From: Hyphococcus flavus
Lineage (GTDB): Bacteria; Pseudomonadota; Alphaproteobacteria; Caulobacterales; Parvularculaceae
Reading direction: 5' to 3'
DNA length: 64,000 bases
Assembly (NCBI RefSeq): GCF_028748065.1
Contig: NZ_CP118166.1
Coordinates: 2,805,501-2,869,500 of the forward strand
The notes below the pieces were generated by a model. That model was not told the origin of the DNA and made no database searches. It was given only the letters and a program-made list of their open reading frames with translations. Shown here piece after piece: positions 29,182 through 45,416 of this stretch. Position 1 is the stretch's first letter; every line of letters begins with the position of its first letter. The position numbers and the translations under genes were made by a program.

Positions 29182-29934
29182 TTAAAACCAGGTTCTAAAA
29201 CCGGCGACAAAGGAAACGCTTCCCGGTTCGTCACCGTCAATCCGTGCAAAGTCAGCACTATCGCCGACGGCGCGTTCCCATGAGACGCCGACATAAGGTG
29301 CGAATTGACGGCTGATTTCGTATCTGAGGCGCGCGCCCGTTTCGACGGTCGATAATCCTGCGCCAATTCCATACTCAGCTATGTCTTGTGCGGCGAAGTT
29401 CAACTCCGCGCGAGGCTGAAGAATAAGTCGCTGTGTGATTAACAGTTCGTATTCCGCTTCGACGCGCGCTTCGACATCGCCGTCATCGGAAACAAACAGC
29501 GCCGCATCGATTTCAAACAAGTAGGGCAATAGCCCTTGCGCCCCGACAACTGCGAACGTGCGGTCATTGCCCGGCGCGAAATCATGTCGGATGCCGGCCT
29601 GAAGATCGAAAAAGTCGCCAACGGCGCGGCTATAAAGCGCCTGGACTTCCGCCTCTTCGAATTCGTCGGCGTCAAAGTCAAATTCGCCCTCGGTCTTAAC
29701 CCACAAACGATTGATATCGCCGCCATACCAGCCTTGAGCGTCCCACAGAAAAACCGGGTCGCCTTCGTTGCTACGATACTCAAGCCGCTCGCCTTCGACA
29801 TACCAGAATGTAGCACCGCCATGGTGTTGTTGAAGATGCTTGCGCATCTCGCTCATGCCATGTGCTGTGTCGTCGGCGAGCGCGCCCAACGGCGCTGCGA
29901 GAATCAGTGTTGTAAGCAGTAGTAGCTTTTTCAT
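29182..29934 (-). CDS. copB: Copper resistance protein B (outer membrane)
   Basis: A 250-residue CopB/PcoB protein with signal peptide LLLLTTLILAAPLGALA. The mature part begins with a His/Met stretch, then FWYVEGERLEYRSNEGDP and WDAQGWYGGDINRLWVKTEG, which are typical CopB phrases. The remainder is alternating beta strands ending in an aromatic residue (FVAGFRTWF), as in outer-membrane beta barrels. In studied systems CopB works with the multicopper oxidase CopA in periplasmic copper defence. Its ATG overlaps the copA stop (ATGA at 29931-29934), so translation is coupled. The Met-rich N-terminal repeats of longer CopB proteins are absent here. Confidence 0.93.
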   Translation of the reverse strand: MKKLLLLTTLILAAPLGALADDTAHGMSEMRKHLQQHHGGATFWYVEGERLEYRSNEGDPVFLWDAQGWYGGDINRLWVKTEGEFDFDADEFEEAEVQALYSRAVGDFFDLQAGIRHDFAPGNDRTFAVVGAQGLLPYLFEIDAALFVSDDGDVEARVEAEYELLITQRLILQPRAELNFAAQDIAEYGIGAGLSTVETGARLRYEISRQFAPYVGVSWERAVGDSADFARIDGDEPGSVSFVAGFRTWF

Positions 29935-31841
29935 GACGCGCTATCCTGATGCATTTCATGACCGCTATGATCCATTTGATGATCTTGATGATGTGCCCGC
30001 GGCTTGACTGACACGACCTGCATCATGCCCGCCATCATGTGATAGAGCAGGTGACAGTGAAACGCCCAGTCGCCGACGGCGTCAGCAGTGACATCGACAG
30101 ATAATTTCTCGCCGGGCTTGACGATGATCGTATGTTTGCGCGCTTTTGTATGATCGTGATGGGCTTGTTTCACGACATCAAAAAACATCCCGTGAAGGTG
30201 GATGGGGTGAGACATCATCGTGTCGTTGACCAGCGTCAGCCTTAGTCGTTCGCCCTCATGAAACGTGATCGCGTCTTCAACTTCGGAAAACTTTTTCCCG
30301 TCGAAGGACCACATATACCGCTCCATATTGCCGGTCAGATGCAGTTCGAGTTCGCGTTCCGGGTCGTGCATGTCCGGGTTCATGTCGAGAGCGCTCAAAT
30401 CCGCATAGGTCAAAACCCGGTGCGGCTGATTTTCGAGGCCGAGACCCGGTTCATTGAGGCGGTCCGAAGGCGTTTCCGCAAGGCCGACAACGCCCGGTCC
30501 GGTCGGGTGGTTGTGTTCCTGCGCGGCGGACATGCCGCCAGTCATATTTGCAGAGTCATGCTTATCATGCCCGGATATTGAATTGTGATCGCCATGAGGT
30601 GATGCGCTGGAACTCGTTGCGCGGTCATCTGTATTCATATTGTGGCCGCTGTGATCCATTCTTGCATGTTGCTCATGCATAGACGCTTCAGGCTCGTGAC
30701 CGCCGCCATGACTTCCATGCGACATGGCCATGTCGCGCATGGTCAGCGTCGGGCGTTCGCGCAACGGTGGCACGGCTGCAACCATCCCCATGCGCGGCGT
30801 TAGGATTGCGCGGGCGTAGCCCGAACGGTCGATCGACTCCGCCATGATCGTAAAGGCTTTGTCCTGATGCGGATGAACGATGACGTCGTAGGTTTCAGCA
30901 ACGCCGATCTGTAGCTCGTCGGTCTCGACCGGCTTTACGTTCAGACCGTCTGCCTGGACGACGCTCATGGGTAGTTCCGGCAAGCGGAAATTGAAGATCG
31001 TCATGGCTGATGCGTTGATAATGCGCAGGCGCACGCGTTCGCCCGGTGAGAAGAGGCCTGTCCAGTTGTCGCCGGGCCCGTGGCCGTTGATCAAATAGGT
31101 GTATGTTGCGCCAGTAACGTCCGCGATATCAGCCGGGTCCATGCGCATGCGGCCCCACATGGCGCGTTCGGACAGCGCGTCCCCGAAACCGTCGTTTCCG
31201 GCGTCCCGGAAAAAATCGACAAGCGTGCGTTTCTGGAAATTATAATTTTCGGAATGTTTTTTCAGCTTGGCGAAAAGCCGGTTCGGATTTTCGAACGTCC
31301 AGTCGGAAAGAACAATCACATATTCCCGATCATATTGAACGGGATCGGCGTCTTTCGGTTCAATGATGATCGGCCCGTAATGGCCTGACTGTTCCTGCAG
31401 ACCTGAGTGCGAGTGATACCAATACGTGCCCGCTTGTTTGAGTGGAAATCTGTAGGTGAATGTCTCGCCGGGCTTAACGCCAGCGAAACCGGATAGGCCA
31501 GGCACGCCGTCCATTTCTGGCGGCAGCAAGATGCCGTGCCAGTGAATGGATGTGTCCTCATCGAGCCCATTCGAAAGATGCAACGTAACGTCATCGCCCT
31601 CGCGCCAGCGCAAAAGCGGGGCAGGAAGCTGGCCATTAATAGTGATGGCGCGTCCGCTTTTTCCATCGATGATAGATTTGGAGCGATCGGCTCGCAGATG
31701 AAACTCAGTCCCGGAAAGCGCGCTTATGCCGTACATGTTGTTGGCCGCGCCTGTCCTGGCCCAGGCAGGCAGTTGAAGTTGTGCGGCAGCAGCGCTTCCC
31801 AGAACGGCTGCGCCATTTAAAAATCGCCGGCGGTTCAACAT
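29931..31841 (-). CDS. copA: Multicopper oxidase CopA (copper resistance, Tat-exported)
   Basis: A 636-residue periplasmic multicopper oxidase of the CopA/PcoA type, which binds copper and oxidises Cu(I). A Tat signal (LNRRRFLNGAAVLGSAAAAQ) is followed by cupredoxin domain 1 with SIHWHGILLP and TYWYHSHSGLQEQSG, domain 2, then a His/Met-rich insert near residues 400-480 (MSHGSHGGGHEPEASMHEQH and similar). The C-terminal cupredoxin has HPIHLHGMFFDVV and the type-1 site FHCHLLYHMMAGMMQ. I start at ATG 31841, which has GAGG upstream; earlier in-frame starts at 31880 and 31943 fall in the promoter or operator. copB and the DUF4396 gene follow. Confidence 0.95.
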   Translation of the reverse strand: MLNRRRFLNGAAVLGSAAAAQLQLPAWARTGAANNMYGISALSGTEFHLRADRSKSIIDGKSGRAITINGQLPAPLLRWREGDDVTLHLSNGLDEDTSIHWHGILLPPEMDGVPGLSGFAGVKPGETFTYRFPLKQAGTYWYHSHSGLQEQSGHYGPIIIEPKDADPVQYDREYVIVLSDWTFENPNRLFAKLKKHSENYNFQKRTLVDFFRDAGNDGFGDALSERAMWGRMRMDPADIADVTGATYTYLINGHGPGDNWTGLFSPGERVRLRIINASAMTIFNFRLPELPMSVVQADGLNVKPVETDELQIGVAETYDVIVHPHQDKAFTIMAESIDRSGYARAILTPRMGMVAAVPPLRERPTLTMRDMAMSHGSHGGGHEPEASMHEQHARMDHSGHNMNTDDRATSSSASPHGDHNSISGHDKHDSANMTGGMSAAQEHNHPTGPGVVGLAETPSDRLNEPGLGLENQPHRVLTYADLSALDMNPDMHDPERELELHLTGNMERYMWSFDGKKFSEVEDAITFHEGERLRLTLVNDTMMSHPIHLHGMFFDVVKQAHHDHTKARKHTIIVKPGEKLSVDVTADAVGDWAFHCHLLYHMMAGMMQVVSVKPRAHHQDHQMDHSGHEMHQDSAS

Positions 31842-31875
31842 TTCAAACCTCAAAGCTTCACATTTGGTTTGGGAA

Positions 31876-31904
31876 GGCATACTATACCCCCCTAGGGTAT
31901 TCAA
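31876..31904 (-). promoter_or_regulatory. copA promoter with CsoR-type operator in the spacer
   Basis: On the minus strand TTGAAT (-35, at 31899-31904) and TATGCC (-10, at 31876-31881) are 17 bases apart. Within the spacer, 31884-31900 reads ATACCC-CCCTA-GGGTAT, a perfect 6-base inverted repeat with a C/G tract. This is the layout of operators bound by CsoR/RcnR-family repressors. The divergent gene at 31919 encodes such a repressor. The promoter assignment is by inspection only. Confidence 0.72.
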
Positions 31905-31918
31905 GCGGCGAGAATGAG

Positions 31919-32194
31919 ATGGCTCATTGCGACAAAACTTCAACGGTCAGGCGGCTAAACCGCATAGAAGGCCAGGTACGCGGCGTCGCGCGTATGGTCG
32001 AGGACGAACGCTATTGCATCGACATTCTGCATCAGGTGCAGGCCGTCAAAGCCGCGCTTTCAAAAGTGGAAGACGCCATCCTCTCCGACCATGCCGCCCA
32101 TTGCGTAGCCGAAGCGATCGCCTCTGGCGACGAGGCTGATCAACGTCAAAAATTCAGCGAGCTTGTAGATCTCTTTGGCAAAGTGAAGCGCTAG
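31919..32194 (+). CDS. csoR: CsoR-type copper-sensing transcriptional repressor
   Basis: A 91-residue all-helical repressor of the CsoR/RcnR family (DUF156) with RRLNRIEGQVRGVARMVED at residues 11-29. The Cu(I) ligand set of CsoR is present: Cys33, His58 and Cys62, spaced 25 and 4 apart as in the characterised CsoR triad. An extra His3-Cys4 at the N-terminus recalls the nickel/cobalt sensor RcnR, so metal choice is not fully settled. Cu(I) binding would release the operator between it and copA. The ATG at 31919 starts just after that operator. The facing permease gene ends 3 bases beyond its stop. Confidence 0.88.
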   Translation: MAHCDKTSTVRRLNRIEGQVRGVARMVEDERYCIDILHQVQAVKAALSKVEDAILSDHAAHCVAEAIASGDEADQRQKFSELVDLFGKVKR

Positions 32195-32197
32195 CCC

Positions 32198-33409
32198 TCA
32201 CCCTAAGACAATCGGAACCAATAGGCCGCCTGCAAGCCAGAGAAACGCGGCCCAAGCAAACAAGCGCAAGATCCTGTCGCTCAGCGTCCCCTTATCGCTG
32301 GTCATGAAACCGGCGGTGCGCCATTTCCAGACTAGAAAAGCGCCGCTCATCGTCAAAAACCCAGCGTTCAGAAACAACGTATAATCGACTTTGAAAAATT
32401 CCCTGTCTGTTACTGAATTGGCGCTGGCGGAATCAGGCAGAAGGCCGGCGAAAGAAAACCCGAAATGCAAGATGACGGCGCACGCGACGAGAATGACCAG
32501 AAAAACGCCGAGAATATAAAGCGCCATCTTCCACCCGTAATATTGCGCCTGAATGCGCAGCACCGGCAGAACGACAAGGTCGCTGAAAATAAACGCCATT
32601 ACGCCGGCGAAGCTGACGCCGTTTGAAAACAGGACTGCGGCGAGGGGAATGTTGCCCATCGATCCGATAAACGTGAAAAACGCCGCTATTGGCCCAACAA
32701 TTGTTTGCGCCAAAATTTCCCAGAACGCCGGATTTTCTGATCCTGAGCCGATAAAGAGCATTTGAAAAAACGCTTTAGGCACGAACGCAGCGATAGCGCC
32801 CGCGACTGTGAAGCCGACCGTCACGTCTTTCCAGACCATTCGCCATTCCACGACGTAGCGGTTGGAGACCTTGCGCCAGCCCTCGCGTGAGCGGATCAGT
32901 TGTTTCCAGTCTGGAAGCTCTTCGGTTTCATCATCGGCTTCCTGTTCGCGCGCATGCTCTCTCGCTTTTTCGATCAGGTTTTGAGGCCGGGTGAAGCGCA
33001 CGACAAGCCACATAAGCAAGATCAGAAGAATCCCGCCAAGATACTCGCCGATAACGAATTGCCAGCCGAGGAAGATGGCGATGACAATGCCAAGCTCGAC
33101 TACAAGATTGGTGGAGGCAAGAAGGAAGGCGAGGGCGGGCACGATCCCGGCGCCCTTGGTGAAAAGCGATCGGGTCGTGGCCAGCGCGGCGAAGGAGCAT
33201 GAGCTTGAAACAAAACCAAAGAAAGTTCCGATAGCGACGCTTTTGGGCCCCGCTTCGCCCATGCTTTTCTGCATGCGTTCGCGGGTGATAAAGACCTGGA
33301 TCATGCTGGAAATGAGATAACCAAGCCCGAAAGCCCAGAAAGCCATCCAGAAAAGGCCGACCGTTGTTCTGGCGGCCTCATGCCATAGGTTCACAAAATC
33401 GCCGCTCAT
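32198..33409 (-). CDS. Permease of the UPF0718/ArsP-like family
   Basis: A 403-residue protein with about nine membrane helices in two similar halves separated by a charged cytoplasmic loop (EKAREHAREQEADDETEELP, residues about 148-170). The first half has FFGFVSSSCSFAALATTRSLF and FLLASTNLVVELG; the second has FIGSMGNIPLAAVLFSNGVSF. This is the predicted-permease family that includes the organoarsenical exporter ArsP. The substrate here is unknown; the Cys in the SSSCS motif and the copper neighbourhood allow metal or metalloid export (inference). It is convergent with csoR and just upstream of the rplJ leader on the opposite strand. Confidence 0.82.
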   Translation of the reverse strand: MSGDFVNLWHEAARTTVGLFWMAFWAFGLGYLISSMIQVFITRERMQKSMGEAGPKSVAIGTFFGFVSSSCSFAALATTRSLFTKGAGIVPALAFLLASTNLVVELGIVIAIFLGWQFVIGEYLGGILLILLMWLVVRFTRPQNLIEKAREHAREQEADDETEELPDWKQLIRSREGWRKVSNRYVVEWRMVWKDVTVGFTVAGAIAAFVPKAFFQMLFIGSGSENPAFWEILAQTIVGPIAAFFTFIGSMGNIPLAAVLFSNGVSFAGVMAFIFSDLVVLPVLRIQAQYYGWKMALYILGVFLVILVACAVILHFGFSFAGLLPDSASANSVTDREFFKVDYTLFLNAGFLTMSGAFLVWKWRTAGFMTSDKGTLSDRILRLFAWAAFLWLAGGLLVPIVLG

Positions 33410-35143: not shown

Positions 35144-39223
<4,080 letters not shown>

Positions 39224-39227
39224 GAGA

Positions 39228-39740
39228 ATGCCTATCCGTCTGTCTCAGTTTCTGCCGATGTTCGTTGCTTATGTAGCAATGACGGTGTCTGGATATGCAG
39301 ATGGGCTTGAACAAATTGTAGAAGTGCAATGCGTAGAGGATGCGGATTATTTCACTGCGACGGGGAAGATGGTCTCAGCGGATTATTTTCAGACTGATGC
39401 TGCGCAAATGGAAGAAGTCTTGGCTGGTCATGGAGTCTTTACATTGAGCAAGCTCGCTTCATCGCCAGTTACATGCCGTGTGGGCGAGCACTTGGTGAAG
39501 GTTCATGCCGAGATTGGTCCCTATCGGACGCAGGGTCGCTGCATTACAGAAGTTAGCGGCAATATTTTTGTTGAACTTGATGATGAAAAGATTGCTGTCG
39601 CCAAATTACCCAGCGCTTGTCTTGATCCCGGTTGGAGTGAGATCGAGATAAACAAGCGTTGGATTAAGGTCACGGAGTTTGCTGGAGGCAATGGCGAGCC
39701 TCTGTCGAGCGAGTTCCAGTTTAAGCATTTTGCTGAGTAG
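39228..39740 (+). CDS. Small secreted protein of unknown function between rpoB and rpoC
   Basis: A 170-residue protein that I do not recognise. Residues 1-24 look like a signal peptide (LSQFLPMFVAYVAMTVSGYA). The mature part is mostly beta-prone, slightly acidic, with four Cys (VEVQCVED, VTCRVGEH, GRCITEVS, SACLDPG) that could form two disulfides. The start ATG 39228 is 4 bases after the rpoB stop, and rpoC begins 39 bases after its end, so it must ride on the rpoBC transcript. Its codon use is more AT-rich than that of rpoB or rpoC, hinting at insertion. The frame is open and has a clean signal peptide, which argues that it is a real gene. Confidence 0.7.
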   Translation: MPIRLSQFLPMFVAYVAMTVSGYADGLEQIVEVQCVEDADYFTATGKMVSADYFQTDAAQMEEVLAGHGVFTLSKLASSPVTCRVGEHLVKVHAEIGPYRTQGRCITEVSGNIFVELDDEKIAVAKLPSACLDPGWSEIEINKRWIKVTEFAGGNGEPLSSEFQFKHFAE

Positions 39741-39779
39741 GAGCGCGTCAAGCGCGCTTCCATCGAAGGAGCAGACTTC

Positions 39780-42700
39780 ATGTCACAGGAACTTCTGAAC
39801 GTATTTAATCCGACTGCCCCCGCGCAGACGTTCAACAAGATCCGTATTTCGTTAGCGAGCCCGGAGAAAATTCTCTCCTGGTCGTTTGGCGAAATCAAAA
39901 AGCCTGAAACCATCAACTACCGCACCTTCAAGCCGGAGCGTGACGGCCTGTTCTGCGCGCGCATCTTCGGTCCGGTAAAGGACTACGAATGCCTCTGCGG
40001 CAAATACAAGCGCATGAAGTACAAAGGCATCGTGTGTGAAAAGTGCGGTGTCGAAGTCACCCTGACGAAAGTTCGCCGCGAGCGCATGGGCCATATCGAA
40101 CTTGCAGCGCCTTGCGCGCATATTTGGTTCCTGAAGTCGCTGCCGTCGCGCATCTCGCTGATGCTCGACATGACGCTGAAAGACCTCGAGCGCGTTCTTT
40201 ATTTTGAACAGTACATTGTGATTGAGCCGGGCCTCACCGCGCTGACGCCGAACCAGCTTCTGACGGAAGAAGAATATCTGCAGGCGCAGGAAGAATACGG
40301 CGAGGATTCCTTCACCGCCGGAATCGGCGCCGAAGCGATCCGCGAAATCCTGTCGAATATCGACATGGAAGCAGAAGCTGAAAAGCTGCGCGTTGAGATC
40401 GCCGAGTCGACGTCGGAACTCAAAACCAAGAAATACGCAAAACGCCTGAAACTGATCACGGCTTTCCTTGAGTCCGGCAACCGCCCGGAATGGATGATCA
40501 TGACGGTTATCCCGGTGATCCCGCCGGAATTGCGCCCGCTTGTGCCGCTCGATGGCGGCCGCTTCGCGACGTCTGACCTCAACGATCTTTATCGACGGGT
40601 TATCAACCGCAACAACCGCCTGAAACGCCTGATCGAACTGCGTGCGCCGGACATTATCGTGCGCAACGAAAAGCGCATGCTGCAGGAATCTGTCGATGCG
40701 CTGTTCGATAACGGCCGCCGCGGCCGCGTCATCACCGGCACCAACAAGCGTCCGCTGAAATCGCTGTCTGACATGCTGAAAGGCAAGCAGGGCCGCTTCC
40801 GCCAGAACCTTCTCGGCAAACGCGTCGATTATTCCGGCCGTTCGGTGATCGTTGTCGGTCCGGAACTGAAACTGCATGAATGCGGCCTGCCGAAGAAGAT
40901 GGCGCTCGAACTCTTCAAGCCGTTCATCTATTCGCGCCTCGACGCTAAGGGTCTCTCGGCCACGGTCAAACAGGCGAAAAAGCTTGTCGAAAAAGAACGC
41001 CCTGAAGTCTGGGATATTCTCGACGAGGTGATCCGCGAGCACCCTGTTATGTTGAACCGGGCGCCGACGCTCCACCGTCTTGGCATTCAGGCGTTCGAGC
41101 CGAAACTCATTGAAGGCAAGGCGATCCAGCTTCACCCGCTGGTCTGTACCGCGTTCAACGCTGACTTCGACGGCGACCAGATGGCGGTGCACGTGCCGCT
41201 GTCGCTTGAAGCGCAGCTCGAAGCGCGCGTCCTGATGATGTCGACCAACAATATTCTTTCGCCGGCCAACGGCAAGCCGATCATTGTGCCGTCGCAGGAT
41301 ATCGTTCTCGGTCTTTACTACATCACCATGGATAAAGAGGGCGAGCCGGGCGAGGGCAAGGTTTTCGGAACGCTGGAAGAAATCGAACACGCGCTCGACG
41401 CCGGCGTCGTCACGCTGCACTCCAAAATCAAGGCGCGCTGGAACACGGTTGACGAACACGGCGACCCGATCAGCGAGGTCGTTGATACAACGCCGGGCCG
41501 GATGAAAGTGGCGCAGGTTCTGCCGCGTAACTCTGATGTGCCGTTTTCCGTGGTCAATCAGCTCCTGACCAAAAAAACCATTCAGGGCCTCATCGATATC
41601 GTTTATCGTCACTGCGGTCAGAAGAAGACAGTTATCTTTGCTGACCACATCATGGATCTTGGTTTCAAGGAAGCCTGTAAGGCCGGCATCTCTTTCGGCA
41701 AGGACGACGTTGTCATTCCTGAAGCCAAGCGCAAGCTGGTTGAGGAAACCCGTGCGCAGGTGTCAGAATTCGAACAGCAATATGCTGAAGGTCTGATCAC
41801 GCGCGGTGAGAAGTACAACAAAGTCATCGACGCCTGGGCGAAGTGTACGGACAAAATCGCCGATGCGATGATGGATGAAATCTCCGAAACGAAATTCGAT
41901 CCGGAGACAAAACGCCAGCTAGAGCCGAACTCCATCTACATGATGTCCCACTCAGGGGCTCGAGGCTCGCCCACGCAGATGCGTCAGCTCGGCGCCATGC
42001 GCGGCCTGATGGCGAAGCCTTCCGGCGAAATCATCGAAACGCCGATCACGTCGAACTTTAAAGAAGGCCTCACGGTTCTTGAATACTTCAACTCGACCCA
42101 CGGAGCGCGGAAAGGTCTTGCCGACACCGCGTTGAAGACGGCGAACTCAGGTTACCTGACGCGCCGTCTGGTTGACGTGGCGCAGGATTGCATCGTCCGC
42201 GAAATCGATTGCGGCACCACCAACGGCATCACGCTTGAGGCGGTTGTTCGCTCCGGTGAAATTGTCGTGCCGTTGTCACAGATCATTCTTGGCCGGACAT
42301 TGCTGGAAGACATCACTCATCCGGAAACGGGCGAAGTTCTCGGCAAGGCCAATGACGAGGTAGATGAAGCGCAAGCCGAAGAGATCGAAGGCGCTGGGCT
42401 GCAGAAGGTCCGCGTACGTTCAGTCCTGACGTGCGATTCCAAAGTCGGCGTTTGTGCGAAATGCTACGGTCGTGACCTTGCTCGCGGGTGTCCGGTTAAT
42501 ATCGGCGAATCTGTCGGCGTCATCGCGGCGCAGTCGATCGGCGAACCGGGTACGCAGCTTACCATGCGTACGTTCCACGTTGGCGGCACGGCGCAGGTCG
42601 GCGACACGTCGTTCATCGAGGCGAGCCACGAGGGTACAGTCAAGCTCGATGGTGGCAATGTGCTGAAAAACTCCGATGGCGATCTGGTCGTCATGGGACG

Positions 42701-44021
42701 CAACACGCTCGTCAAAATCCTCGACAGCGACGGCAAGGAACACGCATCCTACAAAGTATCGTACGGCGCCAAGTTGCGCGCCGCAGACGGATCGAAAGTC
42801 ACGCGCGGTCAGCGCCTCGCTGACTGGGATCCGTACACCATGCCGATCCTGACGGAGCTTGCCGGTAAGATTAAGTTCGAAGACCTTCAAGAAGGGTTCT
42901 CGATGCAGGTTGTCGCCGATGAAGCGACGGGTATCGCCAGCCGCGTTGTTACTGATTGGCGCGCGAACCCGCGTGCGGCTGACATGAAACCGGCTATCGT
43001 CATTGTCGATGACAAGGGCGAGCCGCTGAAACTCTCTTCAGGCGGCGAGGCGCGCTACATGTTGCCGGTCGAAGCGGTTCTTTCCGTCGAAGACGGTGAA
43101 GACATCCGTCCGGGCGACGTGCTCGCGCGTATCCCGACCGAGGGCGCCAAGACCCGCGACATTACCGGCGGTCTGCCGCGTGTGGCGGAACTGTTCGAAG
43201 CGCGCCGGCCGAAAGACCACGCCATCATCGCCAATGTCGACGGCAAGGTTGAGTTTGGCCGCGACTACAAGAACAAACGCCGCATCAAGATCATCCCGAC
43301 CGATGAAAGCCTTGAGCCGTCTGATTATCTCGTTCCGAAAGGCCGCCATATCGCGGTTCAGGATGGCGACTTCATCGCCAAGGGCGAATATCTGATGGAC
43401 GGCAATCCGGCGCCGCATGACATTCTTGCGATCATGGGGATCGAGGCTTTGGCCGACTTCCTCATCGATGAAATCCAGGAAGTTTACCGTCTGCAGGGCG
43501 TGCCGATTAACGACAAACACATTGAGGTTATCGTTCGCCAGATGCTGCAAAAGGTCGAGATCACCGATCCCGGCGAGTCGCTCTTCCTGAAAGAAGAGCA
43601 AATCGACAAGCTTGAGTTCGAAGAAATGAACGCCAAGCTGGAAGATCAGGGCAAGCGTCCGGCGCAGGCAATGCCGGTTCTGCTCGGCATCACCAAGGCG
43701 TCTCTGCAGACCCGCTCATTCATCTCTGCGGCGTCGTTCCAGGAAACGACACGCGTTCTGACCGACGCAGCGGTAAACGGCAAGATCGACACGCTGGAAG
43801 GCCTTAAAGAGAACGTCATTGTTGGACGTCTCATCCCGGCCGGTACTGGCGGGGCCATGTCCCGTCATCAGGTAGAGGCCGAGCGCCGCGACCAGGTGCT
43901 GCTCGAAGAACGCGCCAAGCGCGCAGGCGTTTCCGATACGCCGGCTCTTGAAGGTCCGTCGGAAGACGCGCCTGAAGAGCCTGTGGCGGAAGAAACTGTT
44001 AGTCAGGACGCTGCGGAATAA
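39780..44021 (+). CDS. rpoC: RNA polymerase beta' subunit
   Basis: A 1413-residue beta' subunit carrying the catalytic magnesium site [15 protein letters not shown] near residue 460. Other landmarks are the N-terminal zinc ribbon [20 protein letters not shown], the lid and rudder region, [20 protein letters not shown], the trigger-loop area [15 protein letters not shown], and a second zinc site ([19 protein letters not shown]). The C-terminus is extended by an acidic Glu/Ala-rich tail. AAGGAGCAGACTTC precedes ATG 39780, so translation does not need coupling to rpoB. A terminator follows at 44048. Confidence 0.98.
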
Positions 44022-44168: not shown

Positions 44169-45416
44169 ATGGCCGTGCAACCGTTTGATTATCTTCTCGC
44201 CATACAAATTCCCGTATTTCGGGACGGCGACCGGTTGTTTTATCAAACGGACTGGCATCGCGCCTTGTCCTTACTGCGTGAATCGTTAGGTGATCACATC
44301 AATCGCTTGAAAGTTGTGGCGCCGGTTCTGCCAGCGAGCGGTCCAAGCTCGCATTTGCTGCAACCTGCTGACAGTCTTGATATCGAGGCCATCCCCTCAA
44401 TTCCGCTCGATTGCCGAGCTGCAGCCTATTGGGTGAAGTATCGGAACATCTGGCGCAATGATGTGGCGCGGGCGGCAGAAGGCTGCGCAATCGGTCATTT
44501 TGCCTGCAATGATAATATTCGCACACTTGATCTTGATGCATTCAAGGTAGGGCGCGCCGCGAAACTAATGACTGTGTTTTTTCGCGATGTGGATGAGCGC
44601 GTGCGCATTCCACAAGCGGCCCAAGCGTTGGGGCGTGGGTTGACACTAAAAGAGCGCGTCTATCTCGAAATTGATGACAGGGCCGTCAAATATTGCGTTC
44701 GCCATGCCGATTTATCTTTTCTGAAGGGGCGTTCGCTGATTTCGCGGTACGGCGTTTACAGCAATAATGTCCACGATATAGCCGATACCTCATACAGCCT
44801 GCATGACGTCATCGATTCAACGCTTGTGGAGCGCAGGACAGCGAGTATGAAGGGTGATCGGCCTTTACGGCTGGTCTATTGCGGCCGTCTTGAGCCCATA
44901 AAGGGCGTTGAGGCTGGGATTCGGATAGTCGCAAAAGCGCGTGAAGCCGGCGCGAACGTTACCTTCGATATTATCGGCCAGGGCTCTCAACGACAGCGTC
45001 TGGAAGAGGTGACGGCTGAACTAGGGGCGTCAGAAGCTATACGGTTTTTAGGAGCCATAGCTTACGGCCCTGAGTTGATCAGAAGCCTGGCTGAATATGA
45101 TGCCCTCCTGTTCACGCCCACAGCGGAAGAAACCCCCCGGATGATCTTCGATGGGTATGCCGCAGGACTGCCGTTAATAGGCTTTGATATCCCATATTGT
45201 GTCGAAAGGGCTGAGACGGATGCGGCGGCGGTGTTGATGCCTTTCAGTCACATCAACAAGAGCGCTGCTGTATTGGCCAATCTGGACAAGAATCGCCATG
45301 AATTGGCTGTGGCCGCGCAAAAAGCGCTGAAGGCGGGCAGGGCGAACGCCGTAGATGTCTGGTACAAAAGACGAGCTGAATTAACCCTGGAAACGCTGCA
45401 TAAAAGCCGCCCTTAG
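44169..45416 (+). CDS. GT4-like glycosyltransferase (GT-B fold)
   Basis: A 415-residue protein whose C-terminal half is a GT-B donor domain: LRLVYCGRLEPIKGVEAGIR near residue 236, FDIIGQGSQRQRLEEV, AIRFLGAIAYGPELIRSL, and the Glu-containing TPTAEETPRMIFDGYAAGLP that binds the nucleotide sugar in GT4 enzymes. The N-terminal acceptor half is less conserved. Such enzymes build polysaccharides or glycolipids; no substrate can be named. It stands alone between rpoC (after its terminator) and rpsL (before its promoter), an unusual place for a sugar gene. ATG 44169 follows GGGGATGG only weakly. Confidence 0.8.
   Translation: MAVQPFDYLLAIQIPVFRDGDRLFYQTDWHRALSLLRESLGDHINRLKVVAPVLPASGPSSHLLQPADSLDIEAIPSIPLDCRAAAYWVKYRNIWRNDVARAAEGCAIGHFACNDNIRTLDLDAFKVGRAAKLMTVFFRDVDERVRIPQAAQALGRGLTLKERVYLEIDDRAVKYCVRHADLSFLKGRSLISRYGVYSNNVHDIADTSYSLHDVIDSTLVERRTASMKGDRPLRLVYCGRLEPIKGVEAGIRIVAKAREAGANVTFDIIGQGSQRQRLEEVTAELGASEAIRFLGAIAYGPELIRSLAEYDALLFTPTAEETPRMIFDGYAAGLPLIGFDIPYCVERAETDAAAVLMPFSHINKSAAVLANLDKNRHELAVAAQKALKAGRANAVDVWYKRRAELTLETLHKSRP

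Follow-up and report, generated by a model that had tools for sequence, protein, structure and literature searches.

Few gene pairs are as well conserved across bacteria as rpoB and rpoC. The secE-rpoBC-str-S10 cluster is highly conserved, with small numbers of genes inserted in the course of evolution (PMC8046335, 2021). In the passages of that study considered here, the inserted genes are of known function and are situated between operons (tusDCB, bfd-bfr) or, in Bacilli, between rplL and rsmC; unlike the gene described here, none of them separates rpoB from rpoC. No other case of an insertion between rpoB and rpoC was found in the open literature searched, which is weak evidence of absence. 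In the window, that is, the entire 64,000-nt stretch of Hyphococcus flavus DNA analyzed here, an open reading frame (ORF) for a predicted exported protein separates the two genes (Table 1). We consider it probable that this ORF is a real gene acquired at the junction, that its product is a divergent member of a family of exported proteins, and that at least four, apparently independent, gains occurred at this junction.

Table 1. Features at the rpoB-rpoC junction (positions in the window).
Feature	Position	Strand	Remarks
rpoB	35144..39223	+	start at MAQSF; TAA stop 39221-39223; upstream flank
ORF, 170-aa exported protein (predicted)	39228..39740	+	ATG 39228; TAG ends 39740
Predicted signal peptide MPIRLSQFLPMFVAYVAMTVSGYA	39228..39299	+	by inspection
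Mature domain, 146 aa	39300..39737	+	Cys 11/59/81/107
Hairpin GGAGCGCG-TCAAG-CGCGCTTC	39740..39760	+	ends 19 nt before rpoC ATG
rpoC ribosome-binding site GAAGGAG	39765..39771	+	8 nt before ATG; by inspection
rpoC	39780..44021	+	ATG at 39780; downstream flank

The first-pass annotation described a 170-residue protein with a signal peptide and four cysteines, encoded by a gene more AT-rich than its neighbors and separated from them by 4 and 39 bases, and both this description and the coordinates proved exact. The 4 nt between the rpoB stop and the ATG of the ORF (GAGA) yield a geometry compatible with stop-start coupling, TAAGAGAATG, and 39 nt separate the ORF stop from the rpoC ATG. The G+C content of the ORF is 48.5%, compared with 57.3-57.6% for rpoC and rpoB, and its distribution over the three codon positions (.58/.39/.48) is coding-like. 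When the 556-nt insert was subjected to 5000 dinucleotide shuffles, an ORF of 170 codons or more arose on the same strand in only 2 of them. The in-frame codon score is -0.04 bits/codon, about 6 sd above the shuffled sequences (-0.95 +/- 0.15), and the other five frames of the region score between -0.3 and -1.2 bits/codon; the level of codon usage equals that of a glycosyltransferase gene that lies downstream of rpoC and was apparently acquired. Judging by these sequence properties, the ORF is unlikely to have arisen by chance and is apparently a real gene. Given that no promoter-like or terminator-like site was found around it, the ORF is probably expressed from the rpoBC mRNA, as had been proposed, co-transcription being the simplest assumption. 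The closest solved structure to the RpoC encoded in the window is chain 7ye1_D, a Caulobacter protein, in keeping with a likely Caulobacter-like alphaproteobacterial host.

The signal peptide is typical, and the cleavage site was read by inspection as falling after FVAYVAMTVSGYA and before DG, a position that would agree with the presence, in the relatives discussed below, of a common cysteine at mature position 11. The mature domain is predicted to be probably beta-rich, with two disulfides; the single-sequence structure model of the protein was of low confidence (pLDDT 36), too poor to serve for a fold search.

By direct search, the window protein is an orphan. There is no second copy in its own genome, and searches of 27 congeneric genomes and of samples from the order, class and phylum (398, 385 and 398 genomes, respectively) detected no homologue; the weak matches obtained up to the order level look like noise when aligned. 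Searches of Pfam, NCBIfam, PHROGs and PADLOC gave no match at a curated or significant threshold, and those of the PDB, phage records, plasmid records and viral contigs gave none beyond noise; the relatives of the protein likewise have no match to named families. Rfam gave no match to the insert, so that no known RNA element was identified there, and no convincing flanking repeats of a mobile element were found around it.

The family was first approached through a consensus of one type of exported protein, which was employed only as bait and was later replaced with real sequences. This bait brought in three proteins from other Alphaproteobacteria (G506, G434 and G036), of which the G434 protein is related (E 6e-8) to a protein encoded at the rpoB-rpoC junction of another genome, G032. 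Against a profile constructed from the G032, G434 and G506 proteins, with the window protein excluded from the build, the latter scored 10.9 bits, a value reached by none of 1000 of its own shuffles (maximum 8.3). It was the best non-seed ORF among the 6416 compared with this profile, yet with an E-value of 0.55, so that the match alone would not be significant database-wide. The ungapped N-terminal register of the window protein was matched by none of 5000 shuffles. A cysteine at mature position 11 is found in 6 of the 7 proteins compared, including the window protein, with the cleavage sites set by inspection and those of G029 and G434 adjusted by one residue. The family pattern of TC[RQ] (or EC) followed about 22 residues later by G-x-C is represented in the window protein by TCRV and GRC (Cys 59/81), and the CG pair of the relatives is CI. 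Taken together, these similarities place the window protein, with good confidence, as a highly diverged member of a family of exported, cysteine-containing alphaproteobacterial proteins that has no name. On this point, the first-pass annotation, in which the family was not recognized, is corrected: the protein is not without a family.

The proteins of G434 (L084/L141), G506 (L083/L140) and G036 (L085/L142, N-terminal part) resemble the window protein in having a signal peptide, a mature domain that starts with D-x(9)-C, the cysteine being at position 11 (Phe in G434), and the later TC[RQ] motif, with G-x-C present in G434 and G506. They differ in that their sequence identity to the window protein is very low and their genes are not located between rpoB and rpoC: the G506 gene (L140, 6361-7047, minus strand) lies just upstream of trmD-rplS, a housekeeping translation operon, and the G434 gene is found among unrelated genes. 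The G036 protein is longer (394 aa). Ordinary searches miss this family, which is unnamed in the family libraries searched and is exposed by the present comparison, because of its very fast divergence.

The rpoB-rpoC spacer is 75-84 nt long in the 22 other genomes of the genus, with one exception of 192 nt (G015), and none of the 22, including the sister species G003, encodes this kind of ORF; this is the outcome of the comparison of spacing in relatives that the first-pass annotation had proposed. The same-genus spacers have one recognizable sequence in common, and in the near relatives of the window genome the spacers span 75-127 nt. The G015 spacer (L021) contains a G+C-rich inverted repeat, CTCTCCCC...GGGGAGAG. 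In a survey of the bacterial family, which included 49 genomes with a readable junction (the window genome, G000, among them), much longer spacers were identified in five: 556 nt in G000, 541 in G032, 566 in G029, 728 in G034 and 332 in G128. The inserts of G032, G029 and G034, which represent three genera, each encode on the same strand a predicted exported, cysteine-containing protein; the ORF begins 3 nt past the rpoB stop in G032 and overlaps that stop in G029. The G128 spacer (L129) encompasses a different ORF, of 91 aa, with neither a signal peptide nor a Pfam match.

The junction proteins of G032, G029 and G034 thus share with the window protein the place and strand of their genes, predicted export and the position of the first cysteine (mature position 11), although direct pairwise comparison with the latter yields nothing above noise. 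In contrast to the window protein, G029 and G034 fit the family profile weakly. For G034, the score was reached by none of 1000 shuffles with one profile and by about 1-2% with the others, for a range of 0% to 1.6%, so that this protein is probably a family member; for G029, between 0.6% and 19% of the shuffles reached the score, depending on the profile, and membership is possible. When 62 genomes from the bacterial family were searched with a profile of the protein family, the only matches were the copies of G000 and G032, which both lie at the junction, and one weak fragment in G004; at this sensitivity, with a profile that also misses G029 and G034, no reservoir or donor pool of copies elsewhere is visible in these genomes. 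The G004 fragment (L145, G004:C25) consists of 80 aa, matches the family profile weakly (E 0.018) and may be a decayed copy.

A short hairpin whose end lies 15-25 nt ahead of the rpoC ATG occurs in most of the 49 family genomes. The sequence of the stems varies between genomes while the complementarity stays, and the median score is 8.8, compared with 6.0 for shuffles. The hairpin in the window is the counterpart of this common spacer element. It is kept in the two insert carriers G000 and G032, in both cases 19 nt before rpoC, and the insertion point seems to lie between the rpoB stop and the hairpin. Because the hairpin is retained beside the insert and the ribosome-binding site of rpoC is strong, the expression of rpoC is probably protected.

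Outside the bacterial family, a junction insert was found in none of 100 genomes (14 from the order and 86 from the class), where the spacers are 6-178 nt long; about 27 of the 86 class genomes were selected by a search for a short gap and form a biased part of this sample, and the remainder were not gap-selected. Three genomes with fused rpoB-rpoC were left out of these 100. The latter are small genomes, G545, G722 and G414 (L173, L174 and L175), in which the fusion forms one frame of about 2700 codons. The presence of any long junction ORF in 5 of the 49 family genomes differs from its absence in the 100 outside genomes with a Fisher P of 0.003. In a tree built on 1.5 kb of rpoB and rpoC, which was used for sister relations only given that one outgroup was misplaced, every carrier adjoins non-carriers, and G003, the sister of the window genome, lacks the gene. 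Parsimony compares four gains with one gain and about 15 losses and, with near relatives that are non-carriers and 100 outside genomes free of inserts, favors four separate gains; apparently, the inserts in the four genera arose separately. Third-position identity to the relatives does not dip near the junction, and therefore, recent import of the junction with long foreign flanks is unsupported. In the G008 assembly, there is a second rpoC start (L038, G008:C54), 82% identical; its spacer is 150 nt long and the rpoB tail differs, which perhaps reflects contamination.

Recurrence in three other genera suggests that the junction serves repeatedly as a landing site and that the window insert is not an isolated oddity. 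A further step, to which we assign a rather low probability, is that the site is selected for fast-evolving exported disulfide proteins, with the output of the inserted factor, which would act in the envelope or in antagonism, strictly proportional to RNA polymerase and thereby to growth, and with the conserved hairpin insulating rpoC. Vertical inheritance, in which one old insertion was already present in the ancestor of the bacterial family and was followed by very fast divergence and many losses, would account for the same junction, orientation and type of exported, cysteine-containing product in four genera. We nevertheless regard it as improbable: it requires about 15 losses on the tree (a count that comes from the 1.5-kb tree with its misplaced outgroup), and each loss would have to restore a similar short spacer; the same-genus spacers have a recognizable sequence in common. 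Repeated, apparently independent insertion of genes for exported proteins, within one bacterial family only, indicates that even the rpoB-rpoC junction can be opened, and the inserts provide natural tests of what holds RpoB and RpoC in balance.

Most likely, the product of the acquired gene is an accessory exported protein made by coupling to rpoB. We infer that the ORF would be transcribed together with rpoBC, with ribosomes largely supplied from rpoB by stop-start coupling, and that the product would be exported by Sec and oxidized, with formation of disulfides, in the periplasm or outside the cell. It could then play an accessory role in the envelope or as a secreted factor, with a synthesis that keeps pace with growth, while rpoC would be shielded by its own strong ribosome-binding site and the retained hairpin. 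The first-pass annotation tied the product to RNA polymerase synthesis; a functional tie to the polymerase is not supported. A regulatory partnership, in which the protein or its translation balances the synthesis of RpoB and RpoC or conveys the growth rate to the envelope, is possible, and the location, the likely coupling to rpoB and the recurrence at one junction are in line with it; apart from position, there is little in its favor, and we consider it very unlikely. The product would leave the cytoplasm, the gene is missing in nearly all relatives, the inserts are sporadic, and rpoC keeps its own ribosome-binding site and hairpin, and for the last three reasons, a tolerated insertion fits the data better. 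The least probable reading is that the ORF is spurious and that the insertion or repeat carrying it is non-coding: this would agree with the failure of direct searches to find a homologue anywhere searched and with the occurrence of non-coding repeat insertions in spacers (such as the 192 nt in G015) but not with the 6-sd codon bias in the correct frame, the length of the ORF, the signal peptide, the family match and the stop-start geometry.

A group 1 glycosyltransferase gene (44169-45416) is located between rpoC and rpsL. Its closest matches, which come from Planctomycetes, Myxococcales and Gammaproteobacteria, reach 38-43% over most of the sequence, and among 10 same-genus loci just one shows even a weak match in that vicinity, so that this gene looks acquired as well. 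The rpoC-rpsL gap ranges from about 0.6 to over 3 kb within the genus. Just upstream of rplJ (29931-33409), there is a copper or metal cluster that consists of a multicopper oxidase, a metal-sensitive repressor and an ArsP-type permease, of which the oxidase and the permease are shared with G022.
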